DNA of 33,702 nucleotides from Chromatiales bacterium (GTDB lineage Bacteria > Pseudomonadota > Gammaproteobacteria > Thiohalomonadales > Thiohalomonadaceae): the NCBI GenBank assembly GCA_030640985.1, contig DAOWII010000052.1, positions 1 through 33,702 of the forward strand, read 5' to 3'. Of the stretch, positions 16,402 to 32,073 are shown piece by piece. The notes under the pieces are model-generated. The model did not search any database. It was not told where the DNA came from and saw only the letters and a list, made by a program, of their open reading frames with translations. The translations under genes and the position numbers were made by a program. Position 1 is the first letter of the stretch. Each line of letters starts with the position of its first letter.

Positions 16402-17337
16402 ATGTCTCAAATTCATACACAGATGCAACAGGTGGTCAGCCAGACTGGAAGCGTCATTCTCGGTAAGGAGACCCCGATTCGACTTGCCCTTACCTGCCTG
16501 CTGGCCCGAGGCCATTTGTTGATTGAGGATTTGCCTGGTGTCGGCAAAACCATGCTGGCCCACGTGCTGGCCACCAGTCTGGGCCTTAAATTCAATCGTA
16601 TCCAGTTCACCAATGACCTGTTGCCCGCCGACATCCTCGGCACCGCAGTATTCGAGCGGGAAAGTGGTGAGTTCAAATTTCACCCCGGCCCCATCTTTAC
16701 CCAGGTGATCCTCGCCGATGAGATCAATCGCGCCACCCCCAAGAGCCAGAGCGCGTTGCTGGAAGCCATGGAAGAACATCAGGTCACTGTAGAGGGGGAA
16801 ACCCGCCCTCTCCCAGAGCCATTTTTCGTCATTGCCACCCAGAACCCGTCCTATCAGGTAGGTACTTTTCCCCTGCCCGAATCCCAACTGGACCGCTTCC
16901 TGATGCGCATTGAGCTGGGCTATCCCGATGCCGACGCCGAACGCAACCTGCTGGCAGGGCGGGATCGGCGGGAAATGCTGGCAGAATTAAAACCCGTCAT
17001 GAGCCCCGAAACCTTGCAACAGGCACAACAGGCCGCCACCGAGGTACATACCTCCGATGCACTACTGGACTATATACAGGCCCTACTCACTTTCAGTCGC
17101 CAATCGCCCTATTTTCTCACCGGGCTATCACCCCGCGCCGGGCTGGCCCTGGTTCAAGCCGCACGGGCCTGGGCCTTACTCGCGGGCCGTGACCACGTGC
17201 TCCCGGAGGACGTGCAACAGGTGTTACCCCATGTGGTTGCCCATCGCTTACAAGGCTCTGGTGTCAAAGAGGGTTCGAGTGAAACGTCAACTACCACCGC
17301 CCTTATACAGGTATTCAGCGAAGTGCCCATTCCCTAG
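16402..17337 (+). CDS. MoxR-family AAA+ ATPase
   Basis: This 311-residue cytoplasmic ATPase has Walker A GVGKT (46-50), Walker B VILADEINRA (about 102-111), sensor 1 in FFVIATQNPSYQVGTFPLPESQLDRF, and the AAA_lid domain with GLSPRAGLALVQAARAWAL. MoxR proteins act as chaperone-like ATPases in protein maturation with DUF58 partners. It opens a three-gene operon: the DUF58 gene starts 3 nt after its stop, and the TgpA-like gene overlaps the DUF58 stop. This is the standard MoxR-DUF58-transglutaminase arrangement. The spacing from CAGGAGCCCT to the ATG is short but plausible for a Shine-Dalgarno. Confidence 0.95.
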   Translation: MSQIHTQMQQVVSQTGSVILGKETPIRLALTCLLARGHLLIEDLPGVGKTMLAHVLATSLGLKFNRIQFTNDLLPADILGTAVFERESGEFKFHPGPIFTQVILADEINRATPKSQSALLEAMEEHQVTVEGETRPLPEPFFVIATQNPSYQVGTFPLPESQLDRFLMRIELGYPDADAERNLLAGRDRREMLAELKPVMSPETLQQAQQAATEVHTSDALLDYIQALLTFSRQSPYFLTGLSPRAGLALVQAARAWALLAGRDHVLPEDVQQVLPHVVAHRLQGSGVKEGSSETSTTTALIQVFSEVPIP

Positions 17338-17340
17338 ATT

Positions 17341-18300
17341 ATGAGCCAGATACCCAAGGCCAAACTCAATTTATCCCGTTTCTTTACAGGTGTTGGCCCA
17401 GAAACCGGTCCCATCCTGCTGGATCGACGACGAGTTTATATTTTGCCCAGTCGCAGTGGTGTTATCTTTGCCCTTGTACTGTTCGCCATGCTGCTCGGGG
17501 CCATCAATTACAGCAACAGCCTTGCCCACGCACTCACCTTTTTACTGGCCAGCCTTGGTACCGTTTCCATGCTCCATACTTTCCGCAATCTGCGAGGACT
17601 AAAGTTCCATCCGGGCCAGTGCCACTCGGTCTTCGCTGGGGAAACAGCACTGTTTCCGCTGCGAATAGAAAACAACGGCGACCCACGCTTTGCCATCAAA
17701 CTAGCCTGGCCAGGTCAGGCACCCATTATCGTCGATCTCGCTGCCAGCGATTCCCGCTGGATCAATCTGCCGTGCCCCACTTCACAACGTGGTCGCCTCA
17801 AAATGCAGAAGGCCAACATCTATAGCCGCTTCCCCCTGGGTATTTTTCACGCCTGGGGACATGTACAGTTTAAAACTGAATGCATCATCTACCCCCGTCC
17901 CAGCCCGGAGCGGGAATTACCCCTTCAGTCTATTTCCCACAGTGAGGCTCAGGGCGATCGGGGACGGGGCAGTGATGATTTTGCCAGTCTACGTTCCTAT
18001 CACGCGGGTGATTCCCTGCGACATGTGCACTGGAAAGCCTTTGCCCGGGAACAGGGTCTGCTAACCAAACAATTTGGCGGCGAACAAACCGACGAGCTAT
18101 GGCTTAATTGGGAAGCCCTGGCCGGGCTTGATGTTGAAACACGGTTGTCACGCCTTTGCCGCTGGATACTGGAGGCCGATAAGCTGGGTCTGGACTATGG
18201 TCTGAGCCTGCCCGATAAGCAACTGCCACCCGGACACGGCGAGACTCATCGCCACGCCTGCCTCAAAGCACTGGCTCTATTTGGCAACGAATCAAAATGA
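17341..18300 (+). CDS. DUF58 domain protein, partner of MoxR
   Basis: This 319-residue protein has two N-terminal membrane helices (about 38-75). A beta-rich region and the DUF58 signature follow: GSDDFASLRSYHAGDSLRHVHWKAFAREQ (about 210-238), the conserved Arg-Asp-His-Trp-Lys core. Family members act with MoxR in envelope or enzyme maturation; substrates are seldom known. It starts 3 nt after MoxR and overlaps the next start by 4 nt (ATGA), so translation is coupled. The C-terminal vWA-like part is short but normal for this subtype. Confidence 0.93.
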   Translation: MSQIPKAKLNLSRFFTGVGPETGPILLDRRRVYILPSRSGVIFALVLFAMLLGAINYSNSLAHALTFLLASLGTVSMLHTFRNLRGLKFHPGQCHSVFAGETALFPLRIENNGDPRFAIKLAWPGQAPIIVDLAASDSRWINLPCPTSQRGRLKMQKANIYSRFPLGIFHAWGHVQFKTECIIYPRPSPERELPLQSISHSEAQGDRGRGSDDFASLRSYHAGDSLRHVHWKAFAREQGLLTKQFGGEQTDELWLNWEALAGLDVETRLSRLCRWILEADKLGLDYGLSLPDKQLPPGHGETHRHACLKALALFGNESK

Positions 18301-20309
18301 GACTGCGGCAAAAATCTAAAAACACCTTCAGTGAAGAGCGGGTTATCCCACCCCGTATCGGTCTGCTGTGGTTGCTCGGTGCCGTAGTACTGGTGCTTTC
18401 ACCACACCTGCTTCGCCAGCCCCTTTGGCTTAGCCTGTTTTGCCTGGCTGTACTCGGCTGGCGCGGGTTTCAGCTTCTGCGTAACTGGCCTGCTGTAAAT
18501 AAATGGATCCGTATTTTTTTTACCTTTGCCGGTTTCATCGCGGTACTTCGTTCCTACGGCACCATTACCGGGCGCGATGCCGGGCTTGCCCTGCTCACGG
18601 TGATGCTCTGTCTGAAATTGCTGGAAATGAAAACCCAACGCGACACCATGCTGGTCATATTTATCGGCTACTTCCTGGTCATCGGCCAGTTCCTCTATGA
18701 CCAGGCCATCTTTATCGGCCTTTATCTCTTTTTAGCCGTACTGGTGCTCACCACGGCGCTGATCTTTCTTAACCATCCCGGCAGTCAACGTAGCCACTGG
18801 CGCTACAACATAAAAACCGCTGGCGGCATGTTGCTCCAGGCCATGCCCATGATGGTATTGCTATTCATTCTCTTTCCACGCATTCCCGGCCCTTTATGGG
18901 GGCTGCCCAATCAGGAGACTATGGGCCGCACCGGTCTCAGTGATGAAATGAGCCTTGGTAGCATTACTAACCTGGTGAACTCTGAAGAAATTGCCTTCCG
19001 CGCGGCATTCGAAACGGACATTCCACCTGCCAATCAACTCTACTGGCGCGGCCCTGTTCTATGGCACACCACCGGCCGCCATTGGCGGGGTATTGCAGAA
19101 ACCGACCCGCTTACCCAGCGGCCACCACCCGATTTCACCGCCAGCGGCGAGGCAAGCCTCTACACCGTTACCCTCGAACCTCACGACAAACGCTGGTTAT
19201 TTGCACTGGATCTGCCCGCCTCCATTTCTATCGCGGCCCGCAGCCGGGTAGATTATCAATTGCTCGCTACAAAAAAAGTCACCGAACTGACCCGCTACCA
19301 GGCCAGCTCCTATCTCCAATATCAAGTCAGCAGCCTGGCACCCGATCTGGAAACCATTGCGCTCCACCTACCCCTCCGCGCCAACCCCCGCACCCGGCAA
19401 CTGGCACAAGAGTGGCGACAAAAAGGCTTGTCCACCAACGAAATCGTTACTCGAGCAATGGCTTACATTAGTGAAGGCAACTTCTTCTATACCCGTCAGC
19501 CTCCGGCTTTAACCGGACCAAACCCGGTCGATAGCTTCCTGTTCGATACAAAACGCGGATTTTGTGAGCATTATGCCGCCAGTTTCACCACATTAATGCG
19601 AGCCGCCGGAATCCCTGCCCGAGTCATCACCGGCTATCAGGGAGGTGAACTTAATACCCAGGGCAACTATCTACTGGTGCGCCAATCCGATGCCCATGCC
19701 TGGAGTGAAGTCTGGCTGGATGATCGGGGCTGGGTAAGAATTGATCCCACTTCGCTAATACCGGTGGAGAATGTTGAAACGACTATCGATGCATCTCGCT
19801 TTCGCTCCACTCTGGCCAAATCATTACGATATGGAGATATTTCCTGGCTGACTCGGGGCCTAAGTCAAATGCGCCAAAACTGGGATGCCGTCAACCACGC
19901 ATGGAATCAATGGATACTAGGTTACGGACCAGAAACCCAGGATGAATTTCTAACTAAACTGGGCCTCGGTAAAATGAACTGGCAGCAGATAATTGCCCTG
20001 ATGTTTGGTCTTATTATTCTAGTGTTGCTACCAGTGGCGGCTTATCTGTTATTACGCCAGGCACCTGCTACCGATCCTGTTAATCGACTTTACCAACGCT
20101 TTTGTCAGCAACTGGCCAAGCGTGGCTTACCACTAAAACCCGGGGAGGGGCCGGTGGATTACGCAAATCGAATTATCACCGCACAGCCGGAATGGGCTTC
20201 ACCAGTACAACAAATTACAGCGCTTTATACTGCCCTGCGTTATGCGAAAGTATCCCATCATGAACAATTTCTGGAATTAAAGAATCGCGTGGCAGATTTT
20301 AAGCCATGA
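18297..20309 (+). CDS. Transglutaminase-like membrane protein, TgpA family
   Basis: This 670-residue protein has about five to six N-terminal helices (about 20-195, DUF3488 region), then a periplasmic transglutaminase-like domain with the triad Cys423 (GFCEHYA), His467 (SDAHAWSEV) and Asp483 (RIDPTS). A further helix (about 560-585) and a C-terminal cytoplasmic DUF4129-like segment (LYQRFCQQLAKRGLPLKPGEGP) follow. This layout equals Pseudomonas TgpA, an essential periplasmic transglutaminase-type protein. All catalytic residues are present. The ATGA overlap with DUF58 and the operon with MoxR are typical. The natural substrate is unknown. Confidence 0.94.
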   Translation: MRLRQKSKNTFSEERVIPPRIGLLWLLGAVVLVLSPHLLRQPLWLSLFCLAVLGWRGFQLLRNWPAVNKWIRIFFTFAGFIAVLRSYGTITGRDAGLALLTVMLCLKLLEMKTQRDTMLVIFIGYFLVIGQFLYDQAIFIGLYLFLAVLVLTTALIFLNHPGSQRSHWRYNIKTAGGMLLQAMPMMVLLFILFPRIPGPLWGLPNQETMGRTGLSDEMSLGSITNLVNSEEIAFRAAFETDIPPANQLYWRGPVLWHTTGRHWRGIAETDPLTQRPPPDFTASGEASLYTVTLEPHDKRWLFALDLPASISIAARSRVDYQLLATKKVTELTRYQASSYLQYQVSSLAPDLETIALHLPLRANPRTRQLAQEWRQKGLSTNEIVTRAMAYISEGNFFYTRQPPALTGPNPVDSFLFDTKRGFCEHYAASFTTLMRAAGIPARVITGYQGGELNTQGNYLLVRQSDAHAWSEVWLDDRGWVRIDPTSLIPVENVETTIDASRFRSTLAKSLRYGDISWLTRGLSQMRQNWDAVNHAWNQWILGYGPETQDEFLTKLGLGKMNWQQIIALMFGLIILVLLPVAAYLLLRQAPATDPVNRLYQRFCQQLAKRGLPLKPGEGPVDYANRIITAQPEWASPVQQITALYTALRYAKVSHHEQFLELKNRVADFKP

Positions 20310-22222: not shown

Positions 22223-23209
22223 ATGGCAGAAAAAGTCCCATTACAAACACTACGATCGGACAGTTTTTTGCTATCCATCATCGTGCCCACCTACAATGAA
22301 GAGGAAGTATTACCCGAAATGTATCAGCGCACCATCTCCGTCATTGATAATATTGACGCCGATGTTGAACTTATATTTGTTAATGATGGCAGCAGCGATG
22401 AAACATTAACAATTTTGACGCAACTACATGCAACAGACTCTCGCATTAGTATCATCGATCTAAGCCGTAACTTCGGTAAAGAAATAGCCATGACGGCTGG
22501 GCTTGATTATAGTTGTGGTGATGCAGTAGTTTTAATTGACGCGGATCTTCAGGATCCACCCGAACTGATTCCACAGATGATAGATGAATGGCAGGCAGGC
22601 TTCGATGTAGTATATGCCCAGCGTACTTCTCGTGCTGGCGAAACAGCTGTAAAGAAGGCCACCTCTCATTTGTTCTATCGGCTAATGAAGTATATTAGTC
22701 AAGAGCAAATTCCTGCAGACACAGGTGACTTTCGTTTATTAAGTCGCCGAGCGGTGAATGCACTCTTAAAACTTCGTGAACAACATCGCTTCATGAAAGG
22801 ATTATTTTCATGGATCGGTTTTCCTCAAAAATCTATTCCGTATCAGCGTGATGCGCGCTTCAGTGGCAACTCAAAATGGAATTATATAAGGCTATGGAAC
22901 TTCGCACTTGAGGGCATTACATCATTTAGCACTTTACCACTTAAAATTTCGACATACTTAGGAGTGACAACAGCTCTTGGAGCCTTCCTCTACGGTATAT
23001 TTATACTTTTTGATACCTTATTAATTGGCAACCCTGTTCCAGGTTATCCATCTTTATTGGTAGTCGTATTATTCCTCGGAGGCATTCAACTTATTGCATT
23101 AGGAGTAATTGGAGAATACCTTGGCCGAATGTTTCTCGAAACCAAGAATCGCCCACTCTATCTAATTAAAGGCTATGAACCGAGTAAGTTCTCCGTAGAG
23201 AACGGTTAG
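22223..23209 (+). CDS. GtrB-like polyprenyl-phosphate glycosyltransferase (GT2)
   Basis: This cytoplasmic-facing glycosyltransferase is anchored by two C-terminal helices (about 230-290 in the chosen frame). The GT-A domain shows SIIVPTYNEEE, FVNDGSSDET, LIDADLQDPPELI (DxD-like), and the DTGDFRLLSRRAV acceptor region. That pattern fits DPM/GtrB-type enzymes that make polyprenyl-phosphate sugars. I chose the ATG at 22223 (MAEKVP), with GAGG 9 nt upstream and 1 nt after the GtrA stop. The track start at 22208 would overlap GtrA. The sugar is unknown. The base composition is AT-richer than in the genes before it. Confidence 0.93.
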   Translation: MAEKVPLQTLRSDSFLLSIIVPTYNEEEVLPEMYQRTISVIDNIDADVELIFVNDGSSDETLTILTQLHATDSRISIIDLSRNFGKEIAMTAGLDYSCGDAVVLIDADLQDPPELIPQMIDEWQAGFDVVYAQRTSRAGETAVKKATSHLFYRLMKYISQEQIPADTGDFRLLSRRAVNALLKLREQHRFMKGLFSWIGFPQKSIPYQRDARFSGNSKWNYIRLWNFALEGITSFSTLPLKISTYLGVTTALGAFLYGIFILFDTLLIGNPVPGYPSLLVVVLFLGGIQLIALGVIGEYLGRMFLETKNRPLYLIKGYEPSKFSVENG

Positions 23210-23252
23210 ATAGTAAATTTTACTTTCAAGAATTACTATACCTACCTTGAAC

Positions 23253-24944
23253 TTATATGCGATTTTGCAGTTGTTGGGTTATTAGTTGGTACTGCCTAGC
23301 TTCTTGTGTGTAGCCCAAACTTCTGTAAACCATAGCTAAATTGTAACTGGCAACCGCATTAGCAGGGTCTGCTTTAAATGCCTCCTGATAATATTCTAAT
23401 GCCTGTTCCGTATCTTTTCGTGCAAGTGCATTATTTCCTAAACCTACCCATGCTGATGAATGTTTTGGCGCTTTATTTATAACATCTTTATAATAGTATT
23501 CACTTTTCTCTATATCCCCATCTTGACCATAAAGTAATGCTACTTTTTCTATAAATTCAATGTAAACCATATCATCATTAGTTAATGAAGCCCCTTTAAG
23601 CAACGCTTCAACAATTTTTGGCGTATTATTGGCTCTTTCATAAAATAATACTAAACCTTTATACGGCCTATATGACTCTGGACTGGCAATGGCTGCTTGC
23701 GTATAAAAAACCTCATCATTTTTCCAGTCATTTATTTCAACTACTGAAAGTGACATAAATATAATTGTAACTATAGACCAGCATGTAACAATCAAACGTT
23801 GAGTGGTTACTCTACTATAAAAATATAACCCGGCAACGAGTAGCGCAAGCCCAATGGAGGGGGCGTAGAGTACGCGAATAGCAAATACTGGTTCCTTCAG
23901 CAAGGATATCGATAACGCCGGGGCTAATGTCACCAAAATACAGCATATGGAAAAGGCAAAAAACGGAAACGTTTTCTTAGATAGCTTTGTTGTTAAATAT
24001 AACAGTGCAAATATAATACATGCACCGGCAACAATATTTAAAATATTATTGCCCAGTTTGCCATAATAGTACTCTAGAGGCCACGGCACAAAAAGCAACT
24101 GGAAGTAATATGCAACAAACTGTAGCAGCACATCCCAATTCTCAATATTATAATATAACCCAGCCTGAACCAGAACTGCATCACGTATAATTAAATATAA
24201 AATAAATAGTATCCCGTAAGGGATATATCTCCGAATGTAAAATTTCTTTTCAAAAAGAATGTCATAGAAAACCATTAACAACGGTAAAAATATTACAGAC
24301 TCCTTACTAAGAAGTGCCGCTAAATAACTTGTTACCGCAAGAACTCCAAAAACCACCTTCCGAGTTGCACTGTATTTTAGATAAAAAATAATTGTACTAA
24401 GAATAAACAGTGTGGCTAATAAATCTGTTACACCTGAAATCCAGGCAATTGATTCTACGTGTGTTGGATGGACAGCAAATAATATCGCGCCAAGCGGGGC
24501 AGCTATATGTAGCTTAGATTCATTACCTGACTTCTGCAGTAATAATATTATTAAATAAAATACCAACAAGCTATTAATGATATGTAATATCAAATTTACA
24601 GCGTGATATGCTAAAGAACTTTCTCCCCATAACTGGTATTCCAAATTAAGTAATAATAAAAATAATGGCCGATAATTCCTGAAATCCGCCAAATCGACTT
24701 CATCTGCCCAATCGGTATTTGCCCAGACCCCCTGGGTAAAATAATTTGGAATATATTTAATTTCGGTAATCTGTGAATTTTCTTTTACAACAGGCCAGTC
24801 GTCCATTATATAACCGCCGAACAAGCTACGCCCGAAGGTTAAGACACAAAGCAGAGTGATTACCAGTGCAGAAAATAACAATGGATGCGTACTGAATCTG
24901 TGTTTTATTTTTTCTTTGAGTTTTGAATTTATTTTTATAGACAT
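23253..24944 (-). CDS. GT-C-like membrane glycosyltransferase with C-terminal TPR repeats
   Basis: This 563-residue protein has about ten helices (about 20-405) and a C-terminal TPR region (about 460-560) with at least two repeats, for example AWVGLGNNALARKDTEQALE and ASYNLAMVYRSLGYTQEA. The first periplasmic loop has IMDDWPVV, and a later segment reads FAVHPTHVESIAWISGVTDLL. Both are typical of the TMTC-like/TPR membrane glycosyltransferase group. Such proteins use polyprenyl-phosphate sugars to glycosylate proteins or glycans. It converges on the GtrB-like gene, so it could be the transferase using that donor. The gene is notably AT-rich (many TTA, ATA and AAT codons). Confidence 0.85.
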   Translation of the reverse strand: MSIKINSKLKEKIKHRFSTHPLLFSALVITLLCVLTFGRSLFGGYIMDDWPVVKENSQITEIKYIPNYFTQGVWANTDWADEVDLADFRNYRPLFLLLLNLEYQLWGESSLAYHAVNLILHIINSLLVFYLIILLLQKSGNESKLHIAAPLGAILFAVHPTHVESIAWISGVTDLLATLFILSTIIFYLKYSATRKVVFGVLAVTSYLAALLSKESVIFLPLLMVFYDILFEKKFYIRRYIPYGILFILYLIIRDAVLVQAGLYYNIENWDVLLQFVAYYFQLLFVPWPLEYYYGKLGNNILNIVAGACIIFALLYLTTKLSKKTFPFFAFSICCILVTLAPALSISLLKEPVFAIRVLYAPSIGLALLVAGLYFYSRVTTQRLIVTCWSIVTIIFMSLSVVEINDWKNDEVFYTQAAIASPESYRPYKGLVLFYERANNTPKIVEALLKGASLTNDDMVYIEFIEKVALLYGQDGDIEKSEYYYKDVINKAPKHSSAWVGLGNNALARKDTEQALEYYQEAFKADPANAVASYNLAMVYRSLGYTQEARQYQLITQQLQNRI

Positions 24945-25228
24945 AACTAAGCTAAGTAATAGGGTAGGTTGCTGTTGGATATTAATTTTTGGGTAATTCT
25001 AATTACAAAAAACATCTCTATACTACTTATCTCCCAGATTCTCTACAAGCACCCTGCTTCAAAGATGCTCATCCTCACTATTATTTTTATTGGCAGACAG
25101 ATCGCATTGTAATTATAAGGGCCAACACTATTATTAAATTCTTATTGCCCGGGTATTATTAACCATTAAGGTGTGTTGTTAGAGATTTTACCGCTTGCAT
25201 CAATGTTCCGGGTTTTAAAATAAATTAT
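24945..25228. other. AT-rich intergenic region between mnmE and the GT-C/TPR gene
   Basis: These 284 bp hold no open frame of note and no recognised RNA. The only structure seen is the short inverted repeat GTAATT-CT-AATTAC at 24993-25006, about 50 nt before the GT-C/TPR start. In many gammaproteobacteria mnmG would follow mnmE here; no remnant of it is visible. Confidence 0.6.
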
Positions 25229-29317: not shown

Positions 29318-29326
29318 TGTGGATAA
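29318..29326 (-). promoter_or_regulatory. DnaA box upstream of dnaA
   Basis: TGTGGATAA is the exact complement of the consensus DnaA box TTATCCACA. It lies 83 nt before the dnaA start, where such boxes usually give autoregulation of dnaA. Confidence 0.75.
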
Positions 29327-29408: not shown

Positions 29409-30749
29409 GTGACTAGCCCCCTGTGGCAAAAATGCCTGAAATGGTTGGAGGATGAACTATCCCCTCAACAATTCAATACCTGGATTCGCCCTCTTCAAGC
29501 GGTGGAAGACGATGGTGTATTGCGCCTGCTCGCGCCTAACCGCTTCGTACTAGACTGGGTAAATGAGCATTTTCATGAGCGTATTAGTAGTATTGCCGAT
29601 CAGAACTCCGATGGACGTGAACTGACAGTGCTGGTTGAAGTGGGTAGTAAGGCCCCTCCTCCCAAACCAGAAAAAACTGAACCCGTTCACAAAGAACCCC
29701 TTCCCCCTGGCAAGAAATCTAGCGAAAGACGCAATACCATTAACCCAAATTCCACCTTCGAGGCTTTCGTAGCAGGTAAATCCAATCAACTGGCCCGTGC
29801 TGCAGCCCAACAAGTAGCCGAAAACCCCGGGCTTGGATATAACCCTTTATTTATTTATGGTGGTGTCGGCCTGGGTAAAACTCATTTGATGCATGCTGTG
29901 GGTAACATGATCCTGCAACACCGCCCGAATGCCAACGTGGTATATCTGCACTCTGAACGATTTGTCGCAGATATGGTTAAAGCACTGCAACACAATGCTA
30001 TTAACGAATTCAAACGTTACTATCGTACCGTTGATGCCTTACTTATTGATGATATTCAATTTTTTGCTGGTAAAGAACGCTCACAGGAAGAGTTTTTCCA
30101 CACATTTAACGCCTTACTGGAAGGTCAATCACAAATCATTCTTACCTGTGATCGTTACCCAAAAGAAGTACAGGGCCTGGAAGAAAGACTTAAATCCCGC
30201 TTTGGCTGGGGACTCACCGTCGCCATTGAACCTCCTGAACTGGAAACTCGTGTTGCTATTCTGAAAAGTAAAGCCGCTCAATCCAATATAGACTTACCCA
30301 ATGATGTGGCTTTTCTTATCGCCCAGGGGATTCGCTCTAACATCCGTGAGCTTGAAGGTGCACTACGCCGGGTTATTGCCAACGCTCACTTTACTGGTAA
30401 ACCGATCACCCTCGAGTTTGCCAAAGAAGCTCTCAGAGACTTGCTTGCCTTACAATCTAAATTAATTAGTATCGAAAATATCCAGAAGACTGTTGCAGAA
30501 TATTATAAGATTCGAGTAGCAGATTTACTTTCCAAGCGACGCCCTCGTTCAATTGCCAGACCACGACAACTGGCAATGGCGCTAGCCAAGGAATTAACCA
30601 ATCATAGTTTGCCAGAAATTGGCGATGCTTTTGGCGGTCGGGATCATACAACGGTGTTACATGCTTGTCGGAAAATTCAAGAGTTAAAAGAGAGCGATCA
30701 ACGGATAACTGAAGACTATGCCAACCTGTTGAGAACTCTGTCGACATAG
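29409..30749 (+). CDS. dnaA: Chromosomal replication initiator protein DnaA
   Basis: This 446-residue initiator has domain I (about 1-85, beginning [18 protein letters not shown]), a short charged linker (about 85-110), and AAA+ domain III with Walker [10 protein letters not shown] (151-159) and Walker [10 protein letters not shown] (about 211-219). Domain IV ends in the DnaA-box-binding signature [14 protein letters not shown]. The start is GTG at 29409, with GAGG about 11 nt upstream. A DnaA box lies upstream and several lie downstream in the gap to dnaN. It is the first gene of the rightward dnaA-dnaN-recF-gyrB order. Confidence 0.98.
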
Positions 30750-30972
30750 TCTGTATAAACCTGTGGATAATACTGTGGACTTATTTAATCTAAATATACA
30801 CACATGTTACCCACAGAAAAGTAAGTGCCTTTACACAGAGTTGTGGGCAACTTATTACAAAGTAACTTATTGATTTTACTACTAAAAGTGTGTTTAATCA
30901 CATACTCACAGGACTAGTAGTAATAATAATAAGTTTTATATATATATATTTAATAATAATCAGGAACACATA
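30750..30972 (+). other. oriC: Putative chromosomal origin oriC (dnaA-dnaN gap)
   Basis: These 223 bp hold a perfect DnaA box (30762-30770, TGTGGATAA), a one-mismatch box TTACCCACA (30807-30815), and two-mismatch boxes TGTGGGCAA (30842-30850), TGTGTTTAA (30889-30897) and TTAATCACA (30894-30902). Six trinucleotide repeats and a TA-rich tract follow before dnaN. Clustered boxes beside an AT-rich element between dnaA and dnaN is a common oriC layout. Whether replication starts here is inference. Confidence 0.75.
30902..30950 (+). promoter_or_regulatory. DnaA-trio basal unwinding element and AT-rich tract
   Basis: ATACTCACA (30902-30910, six of nine matches to a DnaA box) is followed by GGAC, then TAG TAG TAA TAA TAA TAA (30915-30932), then GTTTTATATATATATATT. 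The order box, GC-containing spacer, trio repeats, AT-rich tract equals the DnaA-trio unwinding module described in Bacillus subtilis and many other bacteria. All positions are read directly from sequence; the function is inferred. Confidence 0.65.
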
Positions 30973-32073
30973 ATGAAATTCCGGATTTCCAGAGAAGATT
31001 TACTTAAACCACTTCAAATGGTCAGTAGCGTTGTCGAGAAAAGACAAACATTACCTATTTTATCTAATGTGTTTGTTCAAGCTGAAAAAGGCAAACTAAC
31101 CCTGGTAGGTACTGATCTTGAAGTCGAGCTAATGGCTGTGACTTCTTTACAGGATGCAGAAGATGGGGATATCACTCTACCGGCACGTAAATTTGTTGAT
31201 ATCTGTCGGACACTTCCTGAAGAAGCAGATATTACTATCAGTGTGAACGATGCTAAGGCAACGGTACGATCAGGCCGTAGTCGATTTACTTTGGCTACTT
31301 TGCCTGCCTCTGAATATCCTGCTGCTGAAAATGTTACCGGAGCTTTTGAGTTTAGTGTTGAGCAAAAAGATCTAAAAAAACTTCTGGAACAAACACAATT
31401 TTGTATGGCTAATCAGGATGTACGTTATTACTTAAATGGTCTTCTATTCGAAGTGGATAGTAAAACATTGAGAACTGTTGCTACAGATGGTCATAGACTT
31501 GCCCTGTGTGAGACTACTTCTACTGCAAATAGTAGCGAAAAAAAGCAAGTAATCATTCCTCGTAAAGGTGTTGTTGAACTGAGTCGTTTGTTAAGCGATA
31601 GCGATGGTAGCTGTGATATTAAATTTAATAATAACCAGATTAAGTTTAGTCTGGATGGCGTTACCTTAACTTCAAAGCTTATAGATGGCCGCTTTCCTGA
31701 TTATGATCGGGTTATTCCTTCAGAGGCGCCTCAGACAATAATCGCTGATCGGGAAACTCTTCGCCAGGCTTTAGTTCGTGCTTCCATTCTCTCTAATGAA
31801 AAGTATCGTGGTATTCGTCTGCAGCTGGAAAATAACCGAATTCGGGCCTTTGTGAATAATCCTGAACAGGAAGAAGCTGAAGAAGAAATTGAAGTTCAGT
31901 ATCAGGGAGATGAATTTGAGATAGGTTTTAATGTCTCTTACCTGTTGGATGCACTTAATGCAGTCAAACAGGATCAGGTTGAGCTTTCCATGATTGATGC
32001 TAATAGCAGTTGTCGTATTAAAGGGGTTGGTGACGATTCCAGTCAATATGTCGTCATGCCCATGCGTTTGTAA
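30973..32073 (+). CDS. dnaN: DNA polymerase III beta subunit (sliding clamp)
   Basis: This is a 366-residue clamp protein, the same length as E. coli DnaN. It has three successive clamp domains (about 1-120, 125-245, 246-366). Recognisable segments are MKFRISREDLLKPLQMVSSVVEKRQTLPIL, LATDGHRLALCE-like VATDGHRLALCE, and the C-terminal YVVMPMRL that forms part of the partner-binding pocket. AGGA lies 7 nt before the ATG. The clamp encircles DNA and tethers polymerase III. It follows the oriC gap and precedes recF by 12 nt. Confidence 0.98.
   Translation: MKFRISREDLLKPLQMVSSVVEKRQTLPILSNVFVQAEKGKLTLVGTDLEVELMAVTSLQDAEDGDITLPARKFVDICRTLPEEADITISVNDAKATVRSGRSRFTLATLPASEYPAAENVTGAFEFSVEQKDLKKLLEQTQFCMANQDVRYYLNGLLFEVDSKTLRTVATDGHRLALCETTSTANSSEKKQVIIPRKGVVELSRLLSDSDGSCDIKFNNNQIKFSLDGVTLTSKLIDGRFPDYDRVIPSEAPQTIIADRETLRQALVRASILSNEKYRGIRLQLENNRIRAFVNNPEQEEAEEEIEVQYQGDEFEIGFNVSYLLDALNAVKQDQVELSMIDANSSCRIKGVGDDSSQYVVMPMRL

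Follow-up and report, generated by a model that had tools for sequence, protein, structure and literature searches.

A probable origin-opening module with an E. coli-type IHF site, DnaA box and DUE in the dnaA-dnaN gap of a Chromatiales bacterium

The gap between dnaA and dnaN in the Chromatiales assembly GCA_030640985.1 is most likely the site where the chromosome melts open for copying. We analysed a 33,702-nt stretch (contig DAOWII010000052.1, referred to here as the window), and give a probability of about 0.85 to the reading that the gap holds the duplex-opening core of the chromosome origin, arranged as an IHF site, an R1-type DnaA box and a DUE, as in E. coli. The origin-opening module is genuine and probably functional and, instead of a transplanted Bacillus module, is an E. 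coli-type DUE that conforms to the DnaA-trio rule as well. The features on which this reading is built are as follows.

29409-30749, plus strand: dnaA, open reading frame of 446 aa
30750-30972: dnaA-dnaN gap, proposed oriC, 223 bp, 28% GC, with seven DnaA boxes of at most 2 mismatches and a GC skew turn
30762-30770, minus strand: perfect DnaA box TTATCCACA
30807-30815, plus strand: DnaA box TTACCCACA, 1 mismatch, oriented as the core box
30842-30850, minus strand: DnaA box TTGCCCACA, 2 mismatches
30863-30875, minus strand: IHF-site-like 13-mer, exact match to WATCAANNNNTTR (consensus from PMC5742627)
30864-30935: lineage-specific inverted repeat, arms 30864-30884 and 30915-30935, 18 of 21 positions paired, 30 nt between the arms
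30889-30897, minus strand: mirror DnaA box TTAAACACA, 2 mismatches
30894-30902, plus strand: core DnaA box TTAATCACA, equivalent of E. coli R1, 2 mismatches
30902-30910, plus strand: weak second box ATACTCACA, 3 mismatches
30911-30914: GGAC
30915-30932: ladder, read on the plus strand
30931-30914, minus strand: six DnaA-trios, 5'-TAT TAT TAT TAC TAC TAG-3'
30922-30960: AT tract, proposed melting site, least stable of the window by nearest-neighbour energies
30933-30960: GTTTTATATATATATATTTAATAATAAT, following the ladder
30973-32073, plus strand: dnaN, with its ATG at 30973

The gap lies in the gene run rpmH, dnaA, dnaN, recF and gyrB at the end of the window, and combines a skew turn, a cluster of DnaA boxes and an unstable DUE. 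The cumulative G-C minimum fell at 30570 and the keto minimum at 31102, so that the skew turns no more than a few hundred bases from the gap; these values were computed on the 33,702-nt window of an assembly in 203 contigs. Nearest-neighbour stability set 30922-30952 well apart as the weakest 30 bp of the window, and lengths of 60 and 100 bp pointed to this location too.

An earlier note on this DNA had described six in-register units, TAG TAG TAA TAA TAA TAA, preceded by the box-like ATACTCACA and GGAC and leading into an AT tract. The units are exact at 30915-30932 (TAGTAGTAATAATAATAA) and the order is present letter for letter. The rarity claimed for them was borne out as well: when the 223-bp gap (28% GC) was shuffled 3000 times with dinucleotides preserved, TA[AG] repeated six times appeared in one shuffle. 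The 18-mer TARTARTARTARTARTAR has a single occurrence in the 1.77-Mb assembly, in which the pattern of the ladder read backwards has none, and the published geometry (at least six NTA units no more than 16 nt from a box with up to 2 mismatches) was reached by 5 of 5000 shuffles. The choice of ATACTCACA as the box, with its 3 mismatches, gave way to the overlapping TTAATCACA at 30894-30902, which has 2 and is the best profile hit of the whole window on both strands.

The trios themselves had been read on the plus strand, whose TAG TAG TAA register has the look of the consensus although its polarity is wrong. In B. subtilis, H. pylori and E. coli, it is the strand running 5' away from the box that carries the trios (PMC10316083, PMC12342881), and B. 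subtilis DnaA oligomers require a 5'-tail bearing trios (PMC8287927); those of E. coli read 5'-TAT TAG GAT-3' on the T-rich strand adjoining R1 (PMC12342881). We therefore assigned the trios to the minus strand, with the register shifted by one base, giving 3'-GAT CAT CAT TAT TAT TAT-5'. The consensus 3'-GAT-5' is exact in the box-proximal unit only, while the middle A and the 5' T are found in all six. The DnaA-trio rule (PMC8287927) allows a box up to 2 mismatches from TTATCCACA and asks for at least three 3'-NAN-5' units, 0-16 nt from the box, on the strand leading 5' away from it; the core box at 30894-30902 lies at 2 mismatches, and is followed on the minus strand by six units after a spacer of 11 nt. 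The letters that make up the trios at 30931-30914 also form overlapping copies of TTATT, a motif bound by E. coli DnaA, and the minus strand, TTATTATTATTACTACTAG, carries the TT[A/G]T(T) run of an E. coli-type module. Thus the kind and place of the unwinding module in the earlier reading stood, and its strand, register and comparison with Bacillus did not.

We then compared the stretch upstream of dnaN in 106 gammaproteobacterial genomes, mostly one per family. The distance from the box to TA[AG]TA peaked at 14, 17, 20 and 23 nt, with 28, 19, 9 and 7 of the 106 loci respectively (0.1-0.3 expected), a spacing of every 3 nt that amounts to a 3-nt periodicity. The distance from TTGA to the box was 20 nt in 27 of the 106 loci (0.3 expected). 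The layout that recurs among the 105 loci, at sharply fixed distances, is an IHF TTGA, 20 nt, a DnaA box, 13 nt, and NTA NTA NTA, and the profile built from the relatives reads TAA-N4-TTGA ... TTATCCACA-GA-N11-N-TAATAATAA-AA. Under cross-validation, with loci scored outside the training set, 62 of 105 loci scored above the 99% shuffle threshold. The held-out score of the window was 9.7 against a threshold of 0.9, and lies below the top shuffle, which reached 10.1. Of 75 loci whose gap measures 150 bp or more, 61 carry the module; of 25 with a gap below 100 bp, one does. These counts are in-sample, with gap lengths set by a simple open-frame rule. The geometry is fixed across the class. We found no statement of this in a search of the openly available literature, and R1-type boxes, trios and IHF sites are already listed as family markers in a motif study of gammaproteobacterial origins (PMC7174414).

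Conservation in relatives had been proposed as the check on the trios. The box distance, the 3-nt register and about three units are kept, but the exact run of six is not kept in close relatives. Typical relatives carry about three NTA units, followed by a mixture of C and T at the middle position (position 32: 41% C, 35% T); the window has six. In two family members with no module in the gap (L189 and L190), a module upstream of dnaA was not found in the stretches examined. Pseudomonas and its relatives (L085-L147) have almost no dnaA-dnaN gap; their best matches are weak and upstream of dnaA, with the ladder divergent or missing, and these loci served as a negative control only. In Endozoicomonas (L146:860), dnaA and dnaN are 66 bp apart, and the module reappears as a strong copy (37 bits) on the opposite strand of the rnpA-dnaA interval. 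The IHF site, box and ladder seem to move as a unit.

The assignment to Bacillus was set aside on the conserved distances of 20 and 13 nt, which are those of the IHF-R1-DUE-R arrangement of E. coli, and on the ladder being equally a TT[A/G]T(T) run. Since E. coli oriC shares these distances, we read the module as an E. coli-type DUE. E. coli oriC, checked in the E. coli collection (5394 of 5426 genomes), has TTGA, 20 nt, R1, 14 nt and TAATAA in succession, and unwinding in E. coli reportedly depends on strict spacing both from DUE to R1 and from R1 to the IHF site (PMC5742627). The left part of E. coli oriC has the same order and orientation, the same 20 nt between TTGA and the box, and TTATT motifs on the T-rich strand; in the window, the TTGA at 30870-30873 lies exactly 20 nt from the core box at 30894 and belongs to the exact 13-mer IHF consensus. 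E. coli differs in having its origin at mnmG-mioC, with three trios, a perfect R1, many GATC sites and SeqA, whereas the window has a dnaA-dnaN location, six trios, a degenerate box and an 11-nt spacer, with no GATC in the gap and SeqA not found. The module of the window is an ordinary part of a DnaA/IHF origin layout common to much of the Gammaproteobacteria, including E. coli.

The spacer departs from this layout, as 11 nt separate the core box from the first trio instead of the 13 nt of E. coli and most relatives. Because of this, the ladder is out of its usual phase with the core box, and the overlapping weak box ATACTCACA perhaps buffers the shorter spacer. In vitro, origin amplification became faster when the three units of the E. 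coli ladder were extended to five (PMC12342881), and by conjecture from this result the long six-unit ladder may compensate for the weak boxes.

From these elements we infer how binding, bending, melting, strand choice and stoichiometry would follow at the origin core. DnaA would bind the core box at 30894-30902, helped by the weak box at 30902-30910, and IHF would bend the DNA at 30863-30875, bringing DnaA bound further left alongside the core box. The unstable tract at 30922-30960 would melt, and the AAA+ domains of the DnaA oligomer would capture the T-rich minus strand, 5'-TTATTATTATTACTACTAG-3', with about one DnaA subunit per three bases starting from the box-proximal TAG. The captured strand would keep the bubble open for loading of DnaB with the helicase operator DciA.

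DnaA, IHF and DciA are encoded in the assembly. The dnaA product matches B. subtilis DnaA (8btg, E 1e-122) over nearly its whole length; it has V190 at the ssDNA-binding position, which is I190 in B. subtilis, and retains the arginine finger R264. Genes for IHF alpha and IHF beta are present above curated cut-offs, and a gene for DciA is also present. SeqA was not found in the assembly, which is 79% complete, and GATC is absent from the gap; control by Dam and SeqA is therefore not expected, within that completeness. A third HU/IHF-like frame (G000:C42:6750-7025) contains one in-frame TAG, which may be a sequencing error, a pseudogene or an artefact of the frame end.

A strict Bacillus-type basal unwinding system, in which DnaA would load directly from the box, form a continuous filament along the trio strand and open the duplex with no IHF-bent loop, and the IHF-like site would be incidental, is the rival that survives best, at odds we would put at roughly one in four. 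The window shares with the B. subtilis system (boxes 6/7 and trios) its dnaA-dnaN location, boxes that face an AT-rich DUE through a short spacer, and a ladder of six NAN units on the strand whose 5' end points away from the boxes; these units are in register beside the box and within the published rule, and the box-proximal one is the consensus GAT. A system of this type also operates in Gram-negatives, among them H. pylori (PMC8287927), where oriC2 has a long, essential trio ladder beside a DnaA box, but H. pylori has a bipartite origin around dnaA and a different trio composition (PMC10316083). The window differs from B. subtilis in its single consensus GAT unit, weak boxes, an IHF-like site at a fixed distance and DciA as helicase operator. 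Against this rival, the IHF-like element stands at the fixed 20 nt in a quarter of the loci by the strictest count and is therefore under selection, and the IHF genes are present. In most relatives, only about three NAN units are retained before A gives way to G, and the E. coli-like TT[A/G]T(T) is the better-conserved motif.

The ladder also forms one arm of the inverted repeat at 30864-30935; the other, left arm consists in part of the IHF-like element, whose conservation has a cause of its own. In 950 shuffles, the 18 pairs of the repeat were never reached. Conservation of the repeat was rejected, as no other carrier of the module had more than 16 of 21 pairs. The TACTACTA beside the IHF-like element was not found in relatives, the mirrored TACTACTA...TAGTAGTA occurs in none of the 19 other genomes of the order, and the mirror box at 30889-30897 was not seen in relatives. 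Three mirror trios, TTA GTA GTA at 30886-30878, follow this box, and the mirror module passes the published rule. On a comparison that reached as close as members of the same family, the repeat may have arisen by chance, or it may act as a hairpin or as a second opening module that faces outward. A two-faced core, in which DnaA would open the duplex outward both ways from the divergent boxes, or a cruciform would make the trio strand alternate between being paired and being captured, appears improbable.

Still less probable is an active unwinding site in the rpmH-dnaA gap, with the dnaA-dnaN ladder as its remnant. That gap does hold one perfect box (29318-29326, minus strand), and some relatives, such as Endozoicomonas, have the module upstream of dnaA. 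It has two DnaA boxes of at most 2 mismatches against seven in the dnaA-dnaN gap, a three-unit candidate ladder with one NTA, and a best profile score of -10.7; its duplex is less unstable, and the skew minimum lies about 1.2 kb off, near the dnaA-dnaN gap. With nothing comparable there by boxes, profile or trio rule, the original placement between dnaA and dnaN was upheld. A TAA microsatellite that arose by chance or by slippage in the AT-rich leader of dnaN, with no origin role, would suit the AT-rich gap and the varying repeat number among relatives, but is very unlikely given the 1 in 3000 shuffles, the uniqueness of the ladder in the assembly, a distance and 3-nt phase relative to the box that hold constant in many families, and the absence of the module where the gap is missing.

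Under the preferred E. coli-type reading, the IHF-R1-DUE arrangement of E. coli and the DnaA-trio system, which are usually treated apart, appear as one module across the Gammaproteobacteria. This module, with its fixed distances of 20 and 13 nt, occurs both beside dnaA and at the relocated origin of E. coli, which suggests that the E. coli layout was inherited and is not a new invention. The fixed distances also provide a simple ruler for locating origins in fragmentary genomes, and the window, with its 11-nt spacer and six trios, is a natural variant that offers a test of how strict the spacing is.

The single perfect DnaA box at 29318-29326 on the minus strand, upstream of dnaA, is a candidate for dnaA autoregulation. 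Elsewhere in the window, 16402-20309 encodes a MoxR-type AAA ATPase followed by a TgpA-like transglutaminase with DUF4129. The GC content drops to about 0.35-0.37 at 22500-25000, around a TPR-repeat protein and a glycosyltransferase, compared to about 0.45-0.55 elsewhere, and this region is possibly acquired DNA.
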